50,182 nt of DNA. Source: a virus. How positions within the stretch are numbered: the stretch's first letter is position 1; the number at the start of each line of letters is the position of its first letter. Below, piece by piece: positions 9,479-17,192 of this stretch. The stretch covers positions 1 to 50,182 of the IMG/VR virus record IMGVR_UViG_3300044615_001189; one strand, written 5' to 3'. Below the pieces are notes generated by a model. The model ran no database searches and was not told where the DNA came from. It worked only from the letters and a program-made list of their open reading frames with translations. Position numbers and translations under genes: made by a program.

Positions 9479-9839
9479 CGAAGCCCGGCACGAACGGCCG
9501 TGGAGACACCACCGCATCCTGCCAGGGCATGAGCACTATGGTCCCCGGCGTCGCCTTCACCACCGACACGATGTTCTGCCCCGGTGAGGCGTCGATCCAC
9601 GTCCACACCTGCGCATCGCCCCACAGCAGCCGCGGCTGCGACACCACCACGCCATGCAGCTGCAGCATGCAGCTCCCCGGCTCGCGCATCACCTCCAGGC
9701 CCAGCCGCTCGCTCAGCGCCCAAGCCAGCACCTGGCCGCCGCGATCCACGCCATGCACACCGATCCGGTCGCGCGGGCACTGCGCCGCGATCACATCGAC
9801 CGCCGCCTCAAACCCGGCCCACGTCAGCTGGAGCAGCAT
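9471..9839 (-). CDS. Phosphoribosyltransferase-like small protein (122 aa)
   Basis: The ATG at 9839 shares a base with the stop of the ParB-like gene (TGATG). Residues from about 20 read RIGVHGVDRGGQVLAWALSERLG, resembling the first strand, loop and helix of type I phosphoribosyltransferase folds. The PRPP-binding D-D-x-x-x-T/S-G loop is not evident; ATPGTIVL stands near where it would be. It may be a degenerate or minimal PRTase-fold protein. This is a weak similarity seen by eye, and 'hypothetical protein' is the safe label. Confidence 0.5.
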   Translation of the reverse strand: MLLQLTWAGFEAAVDVIAAQCPRDRIGVHGVDRGGQVLAWALSERLGLEVMREPGSCMLQLHGVVVSQPRLLWGDAQVWTWIDASPGQNIVSVVKATPGTIVLMPWQDAVVSPRPFVPGFDD

Positions 9840-10354
9840 CAGTCCTTCCCAGGGATCCACGCCCTATTGAAGCTCCCGCCGCCCGCTTGCGCAGGCATCC
9901 CTGCACGATTGATCAGCCGCGCCACTTCCTCGCGCTCCATCCCCAGCCGCTTCTGGATCTCGCGCTCCGGCACGCCATCGGCCACCATCCGCCGCACGAT
10001 CTCCGCCATCCGCAGCACCGCATGCGTGCCCCGGGCCCGGTTGTGCCGGATCGTGCTCATCATCCGGTGCAGCGGATCCAGCCGTACCGTCACCACCGGC
10101 ACCATGCCGCCGGTGAGCGCCGCGACTCGAGGATCAGCGCTCACGGTCCATCGGTGGAACCCGTCCACGATCACGTGCTGCCCATCAGCCTCCGGCAGCA
10201 CCACGATCGGTTGCGTCCATCCGTCTTCCACCAGGCTGGTGATCAGCAGTTCCAGCTCCGGCGACGCCACCACGTTGGGGTTCCAGGCGTTGCCGACCAG
10301 CTTCTCCCGCGGCAGCCACCGCACCTTCGACACCGGTTGGTCCTTCACGCTCAC
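9839..10354 (-). CDS. ParB/Srx-domain protein, IbrB-like (171 aa)
   Basis: The protein has a ParB-N/sulfiredoxin fold: PREKLVGNAWNPN, then an IVDGFHRW motif (residues 62-69) that stands where ParB and sulfiredoxin have their nucleotide-binding GxxR/H motif. A C-terminal helical region (EREIQKRLGMEREEVARLINR) resembles a helix-turn-helix. It ends SFNRAWIP. Its GTG start overlaps the stop of the PAPS-reductase gene by four bases. A ParB-like protein paired with a DUF3440 PAPS reductase is the arrangement of IbrB and IbrA in E. coli prophages. The biochemical role of that pair is not settled. Confidence 0.78.
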   Translation of the reverse strand: MSVKDQPVSKVRWLPREKLVGNAWNPNVVASPELELLITSLVEDGWTQPIVVLPEADGQHVIVDGFHRWTVSADPRVAALTGGMVPVVTVRLDPLHRMMSTIRHNRARGTHAVLRMAEIVRRMVADGVPEREIQKRLGMEREEVARLINRAGMPAQAGGGSFNRAWIPGKD

Positions 10355-11523
10355 CGCTTCACCTCCAGCGCCTTCACCTGCTCGAACGTCAGGCCCCGCC
10401 GTTGCGCCGCCGTGATCGCCCGCTGCGTCAGCTGGCCCTTCTTCCGGCCCTTCAGATCACCACGGCTCACGATGATGCAGATGTACTTCCAGCTCAGGCC
10501 CGACATCACATCGTCCTCCGCATCCGGGATCGGCCGCGCCGTCTTCTTCCGGTGCATCTTCATCACCGACGCCAGGCCCCGCGCGATCTCGCTCCGCTGC
10601 GGCTCCGGGTACAACTGCAGCATGCTCATCGCCCACTGCTGCCAGCTCATCCCCGGCGGTGGTTCCTTCAGCCTTGCCCCGTAGAGGTCCGTCAGCGCGT
10701 ACCGGCCCGCCGTGTTCACCCCATCGACGCGCCGCAGCATCCGCTCCCACAGCTCCGGCCAGCCATCGGCATACTTCCACAGCCCGCCCAGGGGCTCCTC
10801 GCCGAACGGCGGCGTCACCCGCTGCAGGCTCACGCTTGTGCCCAGCATCGCCTGCACGTCATACGACCGGTTGTAGTCCCACCCCTGCTGGCGCGCTGCG
10901 CGCCACACGTCCTCCGCCTTCCAGTCGTAGATCGGCTTGCAGTTCACGTAGTACCCCATCCGCGCATCCGCGATGTAGTTGTCCCGCGTCCGCCGCAGCA
11001 CCGTCTGCATCCTGCGCGGGCTCTCCTGCGCACGGATCCCCGTCAGGTCCGCCACTCGCCCGCACTCCGGGCCGAACAGGCACGGGCCCACATCATCCAC
11101 CTGCATCCCCGCGCGGAACCGCGGCACATCTCGCACCGTCACCGCCCCGGCCGGCAGCGGCCGGATCCATCGATCACGCGCCGCCTCATCCCAGCACACC
11201 CACCACGGCTCGCTCCTCGAGCACGCATTGCGGTGCGTCACCGGCAGGCAGCACCACCACAGCCGCACATCCTCCCGGCCCCGCACACGCTCCACGTACT
11301 CCACCGTCTCCGGGTAGCAGGCCTCCTCATCCACGAAGTACACATCCAGCGGCAGCCGGCCGCGCTCCCGCGCCACCTGCGCCGCCAGGTTCAGCACCAC
11401 CGTCGAATCCTTCCCGCCGCTGAAGCTCACCACCACGCGGTCCACCAGGTCGTAGATCCGGTGCAGCCGCTCCAGCGCCACCGCCAGCACGTCGCGCTCG
11501 ATCGCCCTCGGCTTCAGCGTCAT
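10351..11523 (-). CDS. PAPS reductase-domain / DUF3440 protein, IbrA-like (390 aa)
   Basis: An adenine-nucleotide alpha-hydrolase (PAPS reductase fold) domain has its PP-loop SGGKDS at residues 35-40. DVYFVDEEACYPETV, CLFGPECGRVADLTGIRAQES and KPIYDWKAEDVWRAARQQGWDYN follow. The C-terminal part (MKMHRKKTARPIPD... SWKYICIIVSRGDLKGR) matches the DUF3440 tail of IbrA proteins. I chose the ATG at 11523, which gives ATGA overlap with the cupin gene. The enzyme probably activates or transfers a group using ATP or an adenylated substrate. It is unlikely to be ordinary sulfate assimilation, given the phage context and ParB partner. Confidence 0.82.
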   Translation of the reverse strand: MTLKPRAIERDVLAVALERLHRIYDLVDRVVVSFSGGKDSTVVLNLAAQVARERGRLPLDVYFVDEEACYPETVEYVERVRGREDVRLWWCCLPVTHRNACSRSEPWWVCWDEAARDRWIRPLPAGAVTVRDVPRFRAGMQVDDVGPCLFGPECGRVADLTGIRAQESPRRMQTVLRRTRDNYIADARMGYYVNCKPIYDWKAEDVWRAARQQGWDYNRSYDVQAMLGTSVSLQRVTPPFGEEPLGGLWKYADGWPELWERMLRRVDGVNTAGRYALTDLYGARLKEPPPGMSWQQWAMSMLQLYPEPQRSEIARGLASVMKMHRKKTARPIPDAEDDVMSGLSWKYICIIVSRGDLKGRKKGQLTQRAITAAQRRGLTFEQVKALEVKR

Positions 11524-12224
11524 CGCGTCTGGATCCCCGCCAGCTCCGCCGCCGACACACCGCTCACCATCGTCCTTCGCACCATCGGGTGATCCACATC
11601 CGTCGGGCCCGTGTCCGAATCCGGGTGCCACGCCACCACCGTCAGCCCGCTGTCCGCGTCCGTCAGGAATCGGTGCTCACCGTGCGGGTGGATCACGAAC
11701 ACCATCCCCGCCTGGAGCTTCTCCCGCCCCGCCGGCGTCTCGCACCATCCACGCCCACGCACCACCATCCCCACACGCACGCTCGGGTGGCTGTGCATCG
11801 TCTGCAGCGTCCCCATCGGGAACCACAGCCCATTCAGGCACGGATCCCCCAGCCGCACCGGCGGCACCAGCAGGCTGTCCGTGCAGCCGTCGATGTACCG
11901 CAGCCGCCCACGCTCCTCGAGAGGCCCGCCGATCGTCATCATCCCCAGCCAGCCCGCGCGGCTGATCACCAGCCCCCGGCTCAGGTCCGTCCCCACCGGC
12001 CGGATCTCGCACTTCCCCGGCACCGCCGCCCACATCCCCGCGGTCAGCACATGCGGCCACATGCCCGACTGCCGCACCGTCAGCGCGCCGTGCCAGCAGA
12101 ACACGAACTGCGTCGCGTCCTCACCCAGCACCAACGCCCCATCATCCACGCCCCACAGCCGACAGTCCGGCAGATCCCTCAGCAACCCATGCGCAATCTC
12201 AATCAGCTCCAGGCTTCTGCTCAT
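11520..12224 (-). CDS. Cupin-fold protein in the IbrAB-like cluster (234 aa)
   Basis: A C-terminal cupin is visible: GTLQTMHSHPSVRVGMVVRGRGW (H144, H146) and then AGMVFVIHPHGEHRF (H179, H181, H184). These are plausible metal ligands. The N-terminal half (CWHGALTVRQSG, MWAAVPGKCEIRP) may be a second degenerate cupin. The ATG at 12224 overlaps the upstream ParB-like gene by 26 bases, and the stop overlaps the IbrA-like gene, so the three genes are translationally linked. It could be a metal-dependent oxygenase, isomerase or sensor; the sequence does not say which. Confidence 0.72.
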   Translation of the reverse strand: MSRSLELIEIAHGLLRDLPDCRLWGVDDGALVLGEDATQFVFCWHGALTVRQSGMWPHVLTAGMWAAVPGKCEIRPVGTDLSRGLVISRAGWLGMMTIGGPLEERGRLRYIDGCTDSLLVPPVRLGDPCLNGLWFPMGTLQTMHSHPSVRVGMVVRGRGWCETPAGREKLQAGMVFVIHPHGEHRFLTDADSGLTVVAWHPDSDTGPTDVDHPMVRRTMVSGVSAAELAGIQTR

Positions 12225-12927
12225 CCATCCACTCCCTGCAGAGCGTCGCCAGGGCCTCGGGCATCCCCTCCAGTCCCCATCGCTCCTTCGCCATCCGCAC
12301 CGCACCCAGCACCGCCTCGCGGTCATCCCACCGCAGGTTCACGCTGAACACGTGCCGCTCCTCCACTCCGCTGCTCTCCGCCGTCGCGTCGGTGCCATCG
12401 TCCTCGGGCTCCGGCGGTGCCGCCCCGGGCCGCCCGGCCTCCGGCTCCACTCGCTCGTTCGCGTTGCTGCTGCCCCCGCCGCTCATCTCCTCGAGCACCA
12501 GGAGCTCCAGCCCATCATGCAGCCGCTGCAGCTCGTCCTCGTCGAAGCCCAGCAACCTGGGATCCAGGTCGATCGCCGCCAGCTCCTTCGCCAGCAGCTC
12601 CTGGTCCCACGTCGCGCCCTCCGCCAGCTTGTTGTCCGCCAGCAGGTACGCACGCCGCTGCTTTTCATCCAGGTGGTCGAGCACCACCACCGGCACCTCC
12701 GCCAGCCCCAGCAGCTCCGCCGCCAGCAGCCGGCCGTGGCCCGCCAGGATCCCGTCGTCGCTGTCGACCAGGATCGGCGCGGTGAAGCCGAACTCGCGGA
12801 TGCTCGCCGCGATGCTCTCCACTTGCCGTTCGGAATGGACCCGCGCATTACGCGCATAGGGCCGCAGGCGCTCCAGCGGCCACATCTCCAGCCGCTTCGC
12901 CATCGCAGGAATGCTCACGTCGCTCAT
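12199..12927 (-). CDS. ParB N-terminal domain protein (242 aa)
   Basis: This is the first gene of the leftward late block. WPLERLRPYARNARVHSERQ and ILAGHGRLLAAELLG (GHGR at 63-66) form the ParB/Srx nucleotide-binding core seen in phage ParB proteins, which are often fused to DNA methyltransferases. Here the C-terminal half is only an acidic, Pro/Gly-rich linker and a short helical tail, with no methyltransferase motifs. An alternative start lies at M9. It may act in DNA recognition or as an NTP-dependent partner for the cupin and PAPS-reductase proteins. Confidence 0.78.
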   Translation of the reverse strand: MSDVSIPAMAKRLEMWPLERLRPYARNARVHSERQVESIAASIREFGFTAPILVDSDDGILAGHGRLLAAELLGLAEVPVVVLDHLDEKQRRAYLLADNKLAEGATWDQELLAKELAAIDLDPRLLGFDEDELQRLHDGLELLVLEEMSGGGSSNANERVEPEAGRPGAAPPEPEDDGTDATAESSGVEERHVFSVNLRWDDREAVLGAVRMAKERWGLEGMPEALATLCREWMDEQKPGAD

Positions 12928-13215: not shown

Positions 13216-14085
13216 TCAGGCGGGCTCGCAGGAGACCTCTACCCCGCTCTCCTTGGAGGGCTTGAGGCGCAGCCAGATGCCGCCCAGGCTCTTGGGCATG
13301 ACGATGCGCTCCACTGCCCATCCCCCTCCACCCTGGAACTCCTCCTTGTAGGTCCCTGTCTGCAGGTGCCAGCGTGTGGCGATGCGCTGCTTGCCTGCGT
13401 TGGTCAGGCGATAGCAGGGATGGGAGACGATGGTGCGCTCGTGGTTGTGGCCGTTGACCAGGATGTCGGCATCAGGGGCGATGGAGGCATAGCGGCCTCC
13501 CCCCATGGTGCCCTTGGTCACGATGCCCCCCCATGCGCCGTGATGGAAGAACAGGGTCGTGCGCCGTGTGCGCTCATCACCTCTGCTGCTGCTGCGGTAG
13601 AAGCTGAACTGCACGAAGCCCTGGTAGCGCATGTGCTCGACCGGCGAGCCATGGCGATCACGCATCAGGCGGGTGAGGTTGCCGAGCGGATCGATCTCGT
13701 TGTGGCTGATGATCGCGGTCTCGTGGTTGCCGTTGCTCATCATCAGGATGGTCTGCGCGAATGGCTTGAGCCAGTCGGCGGCCTCGTTGAGCACCAGGTC
13801 GAAGTAGTTGGAGCCGAGGTGCTCCGGGCGGATGCTGCCCTTGCTGGCGCGGCGATCGCGCTTGCCCTGCATGAGGCAGAGCACGTCGCCAAACATGAGG
13901 GCATGGCCGCCGCGGCCCTGGGCCTCCTTGAGGTGCTTGCGTAGCAGCTCACGATCGCACTTCGGATTGTCGAGGTGGATGTCGGAGCAGAGCAGGAACT
14001 CGTGGGTGCGAGGCCTGTCGTAGGGGATGCGGATCTCCAGCAGCTCCGGTGAGTGGCGCAGCAGTTTCAGCCGGTCTTGCGCCAT
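13216..14085 (-). CDS. Calcineurin-like metallophosphoesterase (289 aa)
   Basis: All metallophosphoesterase signature blocks are visible in order: D35-x-H37 (CSDIHLD), GD at 66-67 (MFGDVL), GNHE at 119-122, FFHHGAWGG, and VNGHNHERT. These bind two metal ions. The enzyme hydrolyses a phosphoester, in phages often a nucleotide or DNA end, but the substrate is unknown. The gene is oriented with the leftward replication genes and ends before the late block's upstream region. Confidence 0.88.
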   Translation of the reverse strand: MAQDRLKLLRHSPELLEIRIPYDRPRTHEFLLCSDIHLDNPKCDRELLRKHLKEAQGRGGHALMFGDVLCLMQGKRDRRASKGSIRPEHLGSNYFDLVLNEAADWLKPFAQTILMMSNGNHETAIISHNEIDPLGNLTRLMRDRHGSPVEHMRYQGFVQFSFYRSSSRGDERTRRTTLFFHHGAWGGIVTKGTMGGGRYASIAPDADILVNGHNHERTIVSHPCYRLTNAGKQRIATRWHLQTGTYKEEFQGGGGWAVERIVMPKSLGGIWLRLKPSKESGVEVSCEPA

Positions 14086-14951: not shown

Positions 14952-17192
14952 TCAGCGAGGTTGGAAGAAGACCCACTTCTGCTGGCCGTCGATGGTCAGC
15001 CGGCGCTTGGACCATCCAACCTCCCGCATGATGCTGCCAACCATCATCTGGTCGGCACGGGTCTGCTGACCGATGGGTTTCTGGACGGCTTCGGTCAGCA
15101 GGAGCTCTGAGGTGATGACCCGGGTGGCGTTGGCTGGGGCCCGCAGCCAGGTGGTGATGGGTTCGCGCCAGGGGTTGGAGACCTGGTAGGCCTCGTTCTC
15201 GCGGTTCACCTGCAGGGAGAGATCGAGGGGGAGGTAGTTGGGCTCCCCGGCGCGGTGTGCATGGACGGCAGCGGACCAGATGGCGTCGCGCTCGGCGGCG
15301 AGGGTGCCGGTGTCGATCGGCTCGGCCTCGTGGCGGGTGGTGGGGATGACCCAGAAGCGGCGGTTGCCGGTGTCGTCGACGAGGAAACCTTCGGAGCGGT
15401 TGGTCGAGCCGACGATGATGCCGCGGCGTGGGGTGTGCTCCACCGCCTTGCCGTAGGGGGCGCGGAACAGATCGGTCTGGGTGGTGAGGAAGGACTTGAT
15501 CTGGCCCGCATGCTTGCGGGAGGTGACGTGATCGAGCTCGGCCCACTCCATGATCCAGGAGCGGTGGAGCTTGAGCAGGTCGTCCTTGGAGGAGAGGTCA
15601 CCAAGGGAGTCGGAGAAGAAGGGCCCGCCGAGGACTGACCAGAAGGAGGACTTCCTGGCCCCCTGATCGCCGGAGAGAATGCAGGTGGTGTCGTGCTTCG
15701 AGCCGGGGTTAAAGGCGCGGCGGACTGCACCGATGAGGGTGCAGCGGAGCATGTGGTCGTAGAGGGTGGGCTGGCCGTGGGCGTTGTCCTCGGGGCGTAG
15801 GTAGGCGGTGGCGAGGCCGTCGATGTAGGCGGGGGCCACGGTGGCGGCGACGTGCTCCAGGTAGAGGGTTACCGGGTCGTAGGGGTGCTCACGTGCCACC
15901 TGCACGAGGGCGTCGATGGCGAGGTCCTTGGAGACCTTGAAGCCCTGATCGGCGAGGGTGAGGTAAAAGCGCTCGGCACCTTCGAGGGGAGCGCCGTCGA
16001 CCTCGACCTGCTGGTGGAAGGTGTTCCAGCGGATGCGCTGCCCGTCGCCGGCCTGGTGGCGAAGCATGAAGAGGAGCTCCGCCGCCTCGAGCTTCTGCGG
16101 CTTGGCGAGCGAGGCCGCGTAGGGCTGCTGCGGGGCCTGCTGCTGCTGCTGCGGTGAGGAGTTGTCAAGCGATCCTTGACGACTGGCCTGCTGCTGGCCC
16201 CGTGGAGACGGCAGGACGGCTCGCTGGGTCCGGGTGTGGAAGCGCAGCCGATCGTGCAGCTTCTCCTCGGGCGTGGATGGCCTGGGGCTGCGGGATTCGG
16301 CACCGTCGAAGCGATGCCAGGCCTTCTTCTCGTCGAAGTCGCGGGCCTTGGTCCGTGCGGCGGCGATGTGGAGCGCGAAGGCCTGGGCGGCGGTGATGTC
16401 GGGGCTGTGGCCCTGGGCGCGGATCCAGGCCTCAGTGCCGCGCAGATCGAGGGCGAGGGCCAGCTGGTCGTCGTTCCAGGATCCTGGGGTGCCGCCGGAG
16501 TCGATCAGATCGCGAGAGGTGCGGCTGATGAAGTCGAGCAGCGGCAGCGTCTCAGCGTGAGATCCTTGGGGCGTTACTGGGATTCCAGTAACGGGTGGCC
16601 GGTTATCAGTCGTGAGCAGCGGTGTGGGCTCGGGCTCGGGCTGATCGAGGAGCAGCTCGATGAGAGCTGCGGGCGCTTCGGCGAGGGATTGCTCAGTGGG
16701 GCCGCGGCCCTTGAGCCAGCGGTAGCCGGTGGTTTCGGGGTGAGCGCCGATGACGACCGAGTAGTGGCCGACCCACCTGAGATCAAGGTTCTCGACCTTG
16801 CCCTGTGCGTCGAGCTGGCCGGTCTTGAAGACGCGGCGGCCCTTGAGGGCATCCCAGAAGTCTTGAGGTACTTGGTAAAGGATTTGGAAGCGGCCGTCCT
16901 TGCCACTGGTCATGGCGAGGGACTTGGGCAGGTCACGGAGGGGCAGGCCCAGGCGCTCCAGCTCGGCGGTGGCGCTGATGCCGTCGTGATCGACGAACAG
17001 CAGGCCAGTGGGTGGGCCGGCGATGACGCCGACGGCGCGAGCGCGGCCGGCGCGGATCTCGGCCGCCACCTGCGCCTTGGTGAGCGGGTTGGCCTGCCAG
17101 GCCTTCTGGTAGGCGCGCTTGTTGCCATCGACGGCCACCAGGGGCCAGCCGTCAGGCAGAGCCTGGAGCTGCTGAAGGAGCTGTTGGGTCAC
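14952..17192 (-). CDS. PrimPol-type primase fused to VirE/SF3-like helicase (746 aa)
   Basis: The N-terminal ~190 residues look like a bifunctional primase-polymerase domain, with a VDHD acidic motif at 67-70 and KDGRFQILYQVP then WVGHYSVVIGAHP. The middle has a Gln-rich linker. The C-terminal ~240 residues are a virulence-associated-E ATPase: Walker A SGDQGARKSS at 507-516, acidic IMEWAELD near 550, and GSTNRSEGFLVDDTGNRRFWVIP. Together these would prime and unwind phage DNA. The GTG start overlaps the preceding gene's stop (GTGA). A perfect palindrome lies within the gene at 16573-16592. Confidence 0.88.
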   Translation of the reverse strand: MTQQLLQQLQALPDGWPLVAVDGNKRAYQKAWQANPLTKAQVAAEIRAGRARAVGVIAGPPTGLLFVDHDGISATAELERLGLPLRDLPKSLAMTSGKDGRFQILYQVPQDFWDALKGRRVFKTGQLDAQGKVENLDLRWVGHYSVVIGAHPETTGYRWLKGRGPTEQSLAEAPAALIELLLDQPEPEPTPLLTTDNRPPVTGIPVTPQGSHAETLPLLDFISRTSRDLIDSGGTPGSWNDDQLALALDLRGTEAWIRAQGHSPDITAAQAFALHIAAARTKARDFDEKKAWHRFDGAESRSPRPSTPEEKLHDRLRFHTRTQRAVLPSPRGQQQASRQGSLDNSSPQQQQQAPQQPYAASLAKPQKLEAAELLFMLRHQAGDGQRIRWNTFHQQVEVDGAPLEGAERFYLTLADQGFKVSKDLAIDALVQVAREHPYDPVTLYLEHVAATVAPAYIDGLATAYLRPEDNAHGQPTLYDHMLRCTLIGAVRRAFNPGSKHDTTCILSGDQGARKSSFWSVLGGPFFSDSLGDLSSKDDLLKLHRSWIMEWAELDHVTSRKHAGQIKSFLTTQTDLFRAPYGKAVEHTPRRGIIVGSTNRSEGFLVDDTGNRRFWVIPTTRHEAEPIDTGTLAAERDAIWSAAVHAHRAGEPNYLPLDLSLQVNRENEAYQVSNPWREPITTWLRAPANATRVITSELLLTEAVQKPIGQQTRADQMMVGSIMREVGWSKRRLTIDGQQKWVFFQPR

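Follow-up and report, generated by a model that had tools for sequence, protein, structure and literature searches.

Phage DNA-modification loci are a known kind of gene cluster, and several described systems share enzymes or position with the one considered here. The preQ0/7-deazaguanine system (DpdA, QueC-E, FolE and a ParB-like protein) is found in phages such as Rosebush, whose DNA carries dPreQ0 at about 28% of its guanines (PMC6884629), and the TET/JBP-TAGT hypermodification clusters rely on oxygenase and glycosyltransferase chemistry. DndC/DndB phosphorothioation and, through BrxP, type-4 bacteriophage exclusion (BREX) use a PP-loop enzyme resembling 3'-phosphoadenosine 5'-phosphosulfate (PAPS) reductase, with Dnd also having a ParB-superfamily partner. 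In Escherichia coli, the IbrA/IbrB pair (and ybdN/ybdM) joins a PP-loop protein with a DUF3440 domain to an IbrB-type ParB/Srx-fold protein. In the open-licence papers searched, IbrA/IbrB with cupin partners were not found as a DNA-modification locus. Here we analyse such a set in an IMG/VR virus record of 50,182 bases (IMGVR_UViG_3300044615_001189; this whole stretch is called the window), where four overlapping minus-strand genes in the order ParB1-cupin-IbrA-IbrB are followed by orfE, orfF and the genes of the small (TerS) and large (TerL) terminase subunits (Table 1). We consider it likely, from gene content and sequence comparison, that these four genes are one of several interchangeable phage DNA-modification cassettes, of undescribed chemistry, which occupy one constant slot, bordered on one side by a ParB-fold gene and on the other by the terminase genes. 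IbrA/IbrB, here with a cupin, would probably decorate phage DNA ahead of packaging.

The preQ0 system shares with the window's cassette both this slot and the use of a PP-loop enzyme, in its case QueC, and it is exchanged for IbrAB in two lineages. However, the cassette has neither a base-exchange enzyme of the tRNA-guanine transglycosylase (TGT)/DpdA type nor genes for preQ0 synthesis, and has IbrB and the cupin instead. The TET/JBP-TAGT clusters also share the ParB-terminase slot, in the phages called lineage 3 below, but, unlike the window's cassette, they contain no PP-loop enzyme. In contrast to DndC and BrxP, IbrA has no invariant cysteines and lies far under the DndC cutoff, and the cassette is devoid of DndD/DndE. 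With respect to the E. coli IbrA/IbrB pair, which is set beside the window's by description only, the difference lies in the linkage of the window's pair to ParB1, the cupin and the terminase. Finally, the window's cupin shares the cupin fold with ectoine synthase (EctC) and with bicupins, ureidoglycine aminohydrolase being one of them, and in other phages cupins of the EctC type form fusions with IbrB; nevertheless, the window's cupin belongs to a family distinct from EctC, with invariant residues of its own.

The exchange of genes in the slot is the evidence that carries this proposal. TerL was used as the anchor for finding sibling phages, and those sharing the window's TerL at 76-92% identity (lineage 1) provided 49 distinct loci; here and below, IMG/VR contigs are fragments, the loci are related and the counts do not represent independent events. 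In lineage 1 the swappable slot lies between ParB1 and orfE/orfF/TerS, with orfE accompanying most cassette types. The cupin-IbrA-IbrB set is intact in 21 of the 49 loci, two of them with an extra radical S-adenosylmethionine (SAM) gene. In two others the slot is filled by a preQ0 cassette, DpdA-QueC-FolE-QueD-QueE: in L287 the genes give matches to QueC (2.4e-64), FolE (5.8e-44), QueD (2e-16), a QueE-like radical SAM protein (9e-7) and a DpdA-like protein (phrog_887, 1.5e-27), whereas in L335, where the contig end cuts ParB1, they were assigned by similarity. Methyltransferases fill the slot in further loci, including an N6/N4 methyltransferase (PF01555, 1e-25 to 1e-27) fused to the ParB1 N-domain in L296 and L307, a C5 methyltransferase (PF00145, 5.9e-39) in L306, and a C5 methyltransferase with an AsnB-like protein and a second methyltransferase in L372, assigned by sequence similarity only.

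The same exchange takes place in two further lineages. The mycobacteriophage Akoma (lineage 2) has ParB as gp1, IbrA as gp4, IbrB as gp5 and TerL as gp6, and in the matching place Laurie, a mycobacteriophage of Rosebush's genus whose TerL is about 60% identical to that of Akoma, has ParB (gp1), DpdA, QueC, QueD, QueE, FolE and TerL. Mithril has at this place ParB, a gene annotated as queuine tRNA-ribosyltransferase and an adenylate-kinase-like gene. For phages of this kind, the opening gene has already been suggested to be a homologue of DpdB, a ParB-superfamily protein (PMC6392294). In lineage 3, formed by phages of another TerL family, the slot holds cupin-IbrA-IbrB in five loci (L118, L120, L124, L383, L461) and IbrA-IbrB in three (L450, L451, L460). 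A very frequent alternative there is TAGT, the TET-associated glycosyltransferase (PF20691, 9.2e-14), which a TET/JBP oxygenase (PF12851, 2.7e-10) accompanies in some cases; ParB-fused methyltransferases and a C5 methyltransferase also occur, and further fillers include other glycosyltransferases, an epimerase and a uridine diphosphate (UDP)-sugar dehydrogenase. In all three lineages, thus, siblings hold known modification genes in the slot, and its recognisable alternatives are overwhelmingly DNA-modification genes. It is mainly for this reason that we favour DNA modification, and the slot exchange likewise favours it among the two roles, DNA modification or host takeover, that an earlier sequence-only reading of the window had offered.

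Many siblings have lost the cassette by deletion. At least 11 loci of lineage 1 are deletion remnants, where the cupin breaks off at numerous different positions and runs on into what is left of IbrB or orfE, and three of the junctions recur in different metagenomes (L272/L273/L337; L265/L267; L301/L332), which disfavours assembly artefacts. The disrupted sets never retain an intact IbrA or cupin, and only once an intact IbrB (L268); this marks the three genes as a single unit, with ParB1 left in place. This frequent natural deletion fits a trait that is gained and lost in an arms race. Natural deletions with differing breakpoints through cupin, IbrA and IbrB can be seen in L264, L265, L270, L272, L279, L282, L291, L301, L318, L325 and L326, and in L268 (4538-5815) the deletion has left ParB1 and IbrB in a single continuous open reading frame.

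Where the cassette is present, it is well maintained. Among 27 relatives from IMG/VR, found via the PP-loop protein, the order ParB1-cupin-IbrA-IbrB is kept in all 26 that reach upstream of IbrA, the remaining one (L008) beginning within IbrA. Ratios of nonsynonymous to synonymous substitution (dN/dS, NG86) against seven relatives are 0.13-0.58 for the cupin, 0.13-0.49 for IbrA (with one comparison saturated), 0.12-0.37 for IbrB and 0.16-0.77 for ParB1, the dS being possibly lowered by GC-rich codon bias. These values indicate that purifying selection maintains the cassette proteins and, together with the kept order, that the four-gene arrangement is not due to chance. The description given by the sequence-only reading stands in this respect: its overlaps of 4-26 bases are found as 26, 4 and 4 bases, its domain calls (two ParB/Srx-fold proteins, a cupin, and an IbrA-like PP-loop protein with a DUF3440 tail) agree with the family matches, and the position that it gave, ahead of the packaging genes, is just upstream of TerS/TerL.

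IbrA matches PAPS_reduct (PF01507, 5e-17, 62.9 bits against a cutoff of 22.5), followed by DUF3440 (PF11922, 2.9e-11, 43.9 bits against 25), and also phrog_2302 (1e-85). With both domains above their curated cutoffs and an IbrB-type partner next to it, the protein belongs to the IbrA/DUF3440 PP-loop family, within the PAPS-reductase/ATP-sulfurylase/flavin mononucleotide (FMN)-adenylyltransferase superfamily. The PP-loop motif SFSGGKDS is present, its core being invariant among relatives, and the active-site motifs are SGGKDS, GxRxxESxxR and PIYDW (alignments A1/A6). For the AlphaFold2 (AF2) model, with a predicted local distance difference test score (pLDDT) of 88.5, Foldseek returned flavin adenine dinucleotide (FAD) synthase and adenosine 5'-phosphosulfate (APS)/PAPS reductase as the nearest folds, with no specific substrate indicated, and the IbrA profile is nearest to the ATP sulfurylase subunit CysD (2.5e-7). 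A common trait of these enzymes is that they produce or consume an adenylated oxyanion. Across 29 aligned IbrA proteins, and in both A1 and A6, not a single cysteine is invariant, which makes a cysteine-based sulfur transfer of the DndC/CysH type unlikely; the catalytic C-terminal cysteine motif of CysH is ECGxH. Two specific identities were rejected on the same lack of an invariant cysteine and on model scores: PAPS/APS reductase (NCBIfam cysH, 22.5 against a cutoff of 165) and DndC (TIGR03183, 20.2 against 290.4).

An IbrB-type partner lies next to IbrA in 141 of 144 distinct viral IbrA loci, as it does in the window. IbrB itself matches ParB_N below the cutoff (5.5e-4) but phrog_2159 at 7.7e-62; its motifs DGFHR and TIRxNRAxGxH are invariant (alignment A2), and its profile matches the ParB/Noc cytidine triphosphatases (CTPases; 4e-7), with a weak match to free serine kinases as well (about 0.004). 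ParB1 matches ParB_N (PF02195, 8e-7), phrog_620 (1.7e-51) and the ParB-methyltransferase family phrog_498 (1.6e-49). Every slot type in related phages has the N-terminal domain of ParB1 (residues 1-136), and the C-terminal part of the protein varies with the cassette, as in the zinc-ribbon-like tail found alongside C5 methyltransferases. A role as ParABS partition protein was rejected for both, which score 34.4 (ParB1) and 23.5 (IbrB) with TIGR00180 (parB_part), against a cutoff of 58.45.

The cupin matches Cupin_2 just below the cutoff (8e-6) and AraC_binding above it (1.6e-4). Its AF2 model (pLDDT 95.3) has a bicupin fold, for which Foldseek retrieved generic bicupins and no specific substrate, with a TM score of 0.67 to ureidoglycine aminohydrolase. 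Among 30 phage and bacterial homologues, H144, H146, H184, C114, C129, C161 and R150 are invariant, the last of these apparently occupying the usual glutamate position of cupins. The sequence-only reading had given weight to five clustered histidines, and a role for all five does not hold, as H179 is present in 12 of the 30 and H181 is not conserved. Since only three histidines are invariant and R150 apparently takes the place of the glutamate, the pattern suggests a predicted 3-His metal site formed by H144, H146 and H184. A profile search of IMG/VR and GTDB yielded 273 relatives in viruses and 77 in bacteria, and tblastn against sequenced phage isolates gave no match with a query (window:11520-12209) that stopped 15 bases short of the start codon, a shortfall expected to have no effect.

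In viruses, this cupin is a true, standard partner of IbrA/IbrB. The pair adjoins it in nearly all of 116 viral cupin loci (some of which repeat one contig), mostly in the order ParB1-cupin-IbrA-IbrB, and elsewhere with the cupin after IbrB. Seen from IbrA, 77 of the 144 viral loci left after collapsing identical IbrA have a window-type cupin and six an EctC-type cupin, in a set enriched for the cupin by several queries drawn from the ParB1-cupin-IbrA-IbrB module. The co-occurrence of the cupin and the second ParB with IbrA/IbrB, on which the sequence-only reading had made its proposal depend, is thus strong. EctC-type cupins are a recruitment independent of the window's cupin family: one is fused to IbrB in Mycobacterium phage Gaia (PF06339, 1.3e-32), another lies between IbrA and IbrB in Pseudoalteromonas phage XCL1123 (PF06339, 1.7e-35), and four viral contigs have an EctC-IbrB fusion like that of Gaia, the fused or adjacent set comprising Gaia, XCL1123, L160, L166, L170 and L180. 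The identification of the window's cupin as EctC was rejected, as it gives no PF06339 match, whereas the Gaia and XCL1123 cupins do. A third recurring partner of IbrA/IbrB is a domain of about 130 amino acids (HTWDKWECYPAGFYE...CEHYLTNENMNRIAWLGQA), standalone or fused to the IbrB C-terminus, which occurs in L146, L158, L163, L182, L149, L156, L168 and as Gaia gp106 (L029:5361-5759), never together with the bicupin.

The bacterial loci of the cupin family mostly come without IbrAB, which are present in L221 and L261 only. An AsnB-like protein (PF00733, 5.9e-71) is encoded near the cupin in 43 of the 77 bacterial loci, and Lewinella-type genomes encode, next to the cupin, a protein that carries an SGGIDST motif. 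In bacteria, too, the cupin thus travels with PP-loop-type proteins, though these are of other families. In L188, L190, L201, L229, L246, L255 and other bacterial loci, the chromosomal cupin adjoins an AsnB-like PP-loop protein together with a TOPRIM-like membrane protein that has a Zn-ribbon, a set that constitutes an uncharacterised bacterial system. These neighbours gave no indication of the cupin's substrate.

As for the mechanism that we propose, ParB1, common to the slot types, would be a nucleoside triphosphate (NTP)-dependent DNA-binding or loading subunit that recruits the enzymes to phage DNA ahead of its packaging, like the proposal made for DpdB in dpd systems. IbrA would carry out an ATP-driven adenylation of an oxygen on a base, the backbone or a small-molecule donor, and IbrB, whose fold is related to ParB CTPases and serine kinases, would perform an NTP-dependent partner step or the handover of the substrate. 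The metal cupin would tailor the donor or the attached group, and the product would be modified phage DNA, resistant to host nucleases. We give an even chance to the more specific idea of an undescribed DNA modification that a PP-loop adenylating enzyme would install together with a ParB/Srx-fold partner and a metal cupin, in which the IbrA/IbrB core would work in many phage lineages with differing tailoring partners (the bicupin, the EctC-type cupin or the domain of about 130 amino acids). If true, this would add to the known DNA modifications and, probably, to the known anti-restriction mechanisms; a paper on a Flavobacterium phage with IbrAB contains no restriction-digest data. More than 200 sequenced phage isolates carry IbrA/IbrB and DUF3440 proteins, as E. 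coli does, yet none of the papers found gives their chemistry, and no mechanism for DUF3440, ybdNM or cupin/ParB/PAPS combinations was found in the open-licence literature. The ParB-slot-terminase locus offers, in addition, a simple handle for finding more phage DNA-modification systems.

Several points weigh against a role in DNA modification. Replacement in the slot indicates a common context, not a chemistry, and certain slots hold other or unknown kinds of genes (radical SAM with a second ParB; ATPase-GNAT) or nothing. Moreover, 43 of the 144 distinct IbrA/IbrB loci, mostly of a distant subfamily that may have a different function, have no adjacent cupin, ParB1 or terminase, and the cupin family, occurring in bacteria without IbrAB and beside AsnB-like proteins, is not by itself DNA-specific. 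Instead, the target of the cassette could be a small molecule or free nucleotides, with a host signal or cofactor, for instance, being depleted or masked; the cassette would then be an anti-defence or host-takeover module that merely sits in a shared accessory slot. Even though PP-loop and ParB/Srx folds work on nucleotides, the nearest folds of IbrA use free metabolites, the bacterial cupins lack a DNA-modification context and frequent deletion is typical for accessory genes, we consider this alternative unlikely, since the recognisable slot fillers of the three lineages are DNA methyltransferases, preQ0 and TET/glycosyltransferase systems, not mixed morons, and ParB1 is common to, and even fused with, the DNA enzymes of the slot.

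DNA modification by sulfur insertion, be it phosphorothioation-like or of another kind related to DndC/BrxP, is far less probable. Cysteine dioxygenases, in this regard, are cupins. One Mycobacterium abscessus prophage has both cysteine-dioxygenase-like and PAPS-reductase-like genes, and the product of the latter has been likened to DndC in a literature remark (PMC8092301). IbrA itself shows weak similarity to the BrxP (1.4e-8) and DndC (3e-7) models; however, DndC has been described with a distinct cysteine dyad (PMC10853773), whereas the 29 IbrA proteins share no invariant cysteine, the DndC model score of 20 compares with a cutoff of 290, and no DndA/D/E-like gene was seen within the cassette. 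A function in transcription, with IbrA/IbrB co-activating late genes in line with their E. coli name and the pre-terminase position reflecting late-operon control, is equally improbable. Although E. coli IbrAB are reported to raise prophage eib expression (Sandt 2002) and the cassette does precede the packaging genes, IbrA has a complete PP-loop catalytic site under purifying selection, siblings without the cassette retain the operon, and catalytic DNA-modification genes replace it.

Table 1. Genes of the cassette and of its downstream flank in the window.
Feature	Position	Strand	Description
ParB1	12927-12199	-	242 amino acids; ParB/Srx-fold NTPase-like; first gene of the cassette
Cupin	12224-11520	-	234 amino acids; 26-base overlap with ParB1; bicupin
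IbrA-like	11523-10351	-	390 amino acids; 4-base overlap with cupin; PP-loop and DUF3440 tail
IbrB-like	10354-9839	-	171 amino acids; 4-base overlap with IbrA; ParB/Srx fold
orfE	9860-9471	-	phrog_8995 (E=0.011) as sole basis; slot flank; kept in relatives
orfF	9517-9203	-	Small protein, kept in relatives; slot flank
TerS	9209-8601	-	Terminase small subunit; phrog_57 (3e-18); downstream border of the slot
TerL	8620-6707	-	GpA-type large subunit; PF20454 (1.8e-86), PF05876 (1.3e-77)

A scan for consensus promoters and terminators gave no match. Regarding the flank of the slot, orfE is possibly a degenerate phosphoribosyltransferase-like protein. The preQ0 cassettes of lineage 1 (L287:1843-6066, L335:1-4011) also include a phosphoribosyltransferase-like gene (PF00156, 4.3e-6 in L287), to which orfE may be related.

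Some of the slots hold further gene sets. In L372 (4189-7800), the C5 methyltransferase is accompanied by a short ParB, an AsnB-like amidotransferase whose N-terminal MCG is intact and one more SAM methyltransferase, a combination that may represent an amide-forming DNA hypermodification. The slot of L440 (423-3070) contains ParB, a glycosyltransferase-like protein and an apparent UDP-galactopyranose mutase, which hints at galactofuranose on DNA. A second ParB1-like gene with a radical SAM protein (PF04055, 5.6e-5, 417 amino acids) is found in L013, L022, L293, L322 and L365, either between IbrB and orfE or replacing the cassette.

Just upstream of ParB1, on the same strand, the window encodes a metallophosphoesterase-like protein (13216-14085; PF00149, 0.0022, below cutoff; phrog_7339, DNA repair exonuclease, 4.3e-15), and farther upstream (14952-17192, minus strand) a fusion of Prim-Pol and a VapE-like helicase. 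A sequence similar to the N-terminal one of this fusion is present in the phage contig L160, where EctC and IbrB are fused. A related contig, L187, lies within a Synechococcaceae metagenome-assembled genome, which provides a weak hint as to the host.

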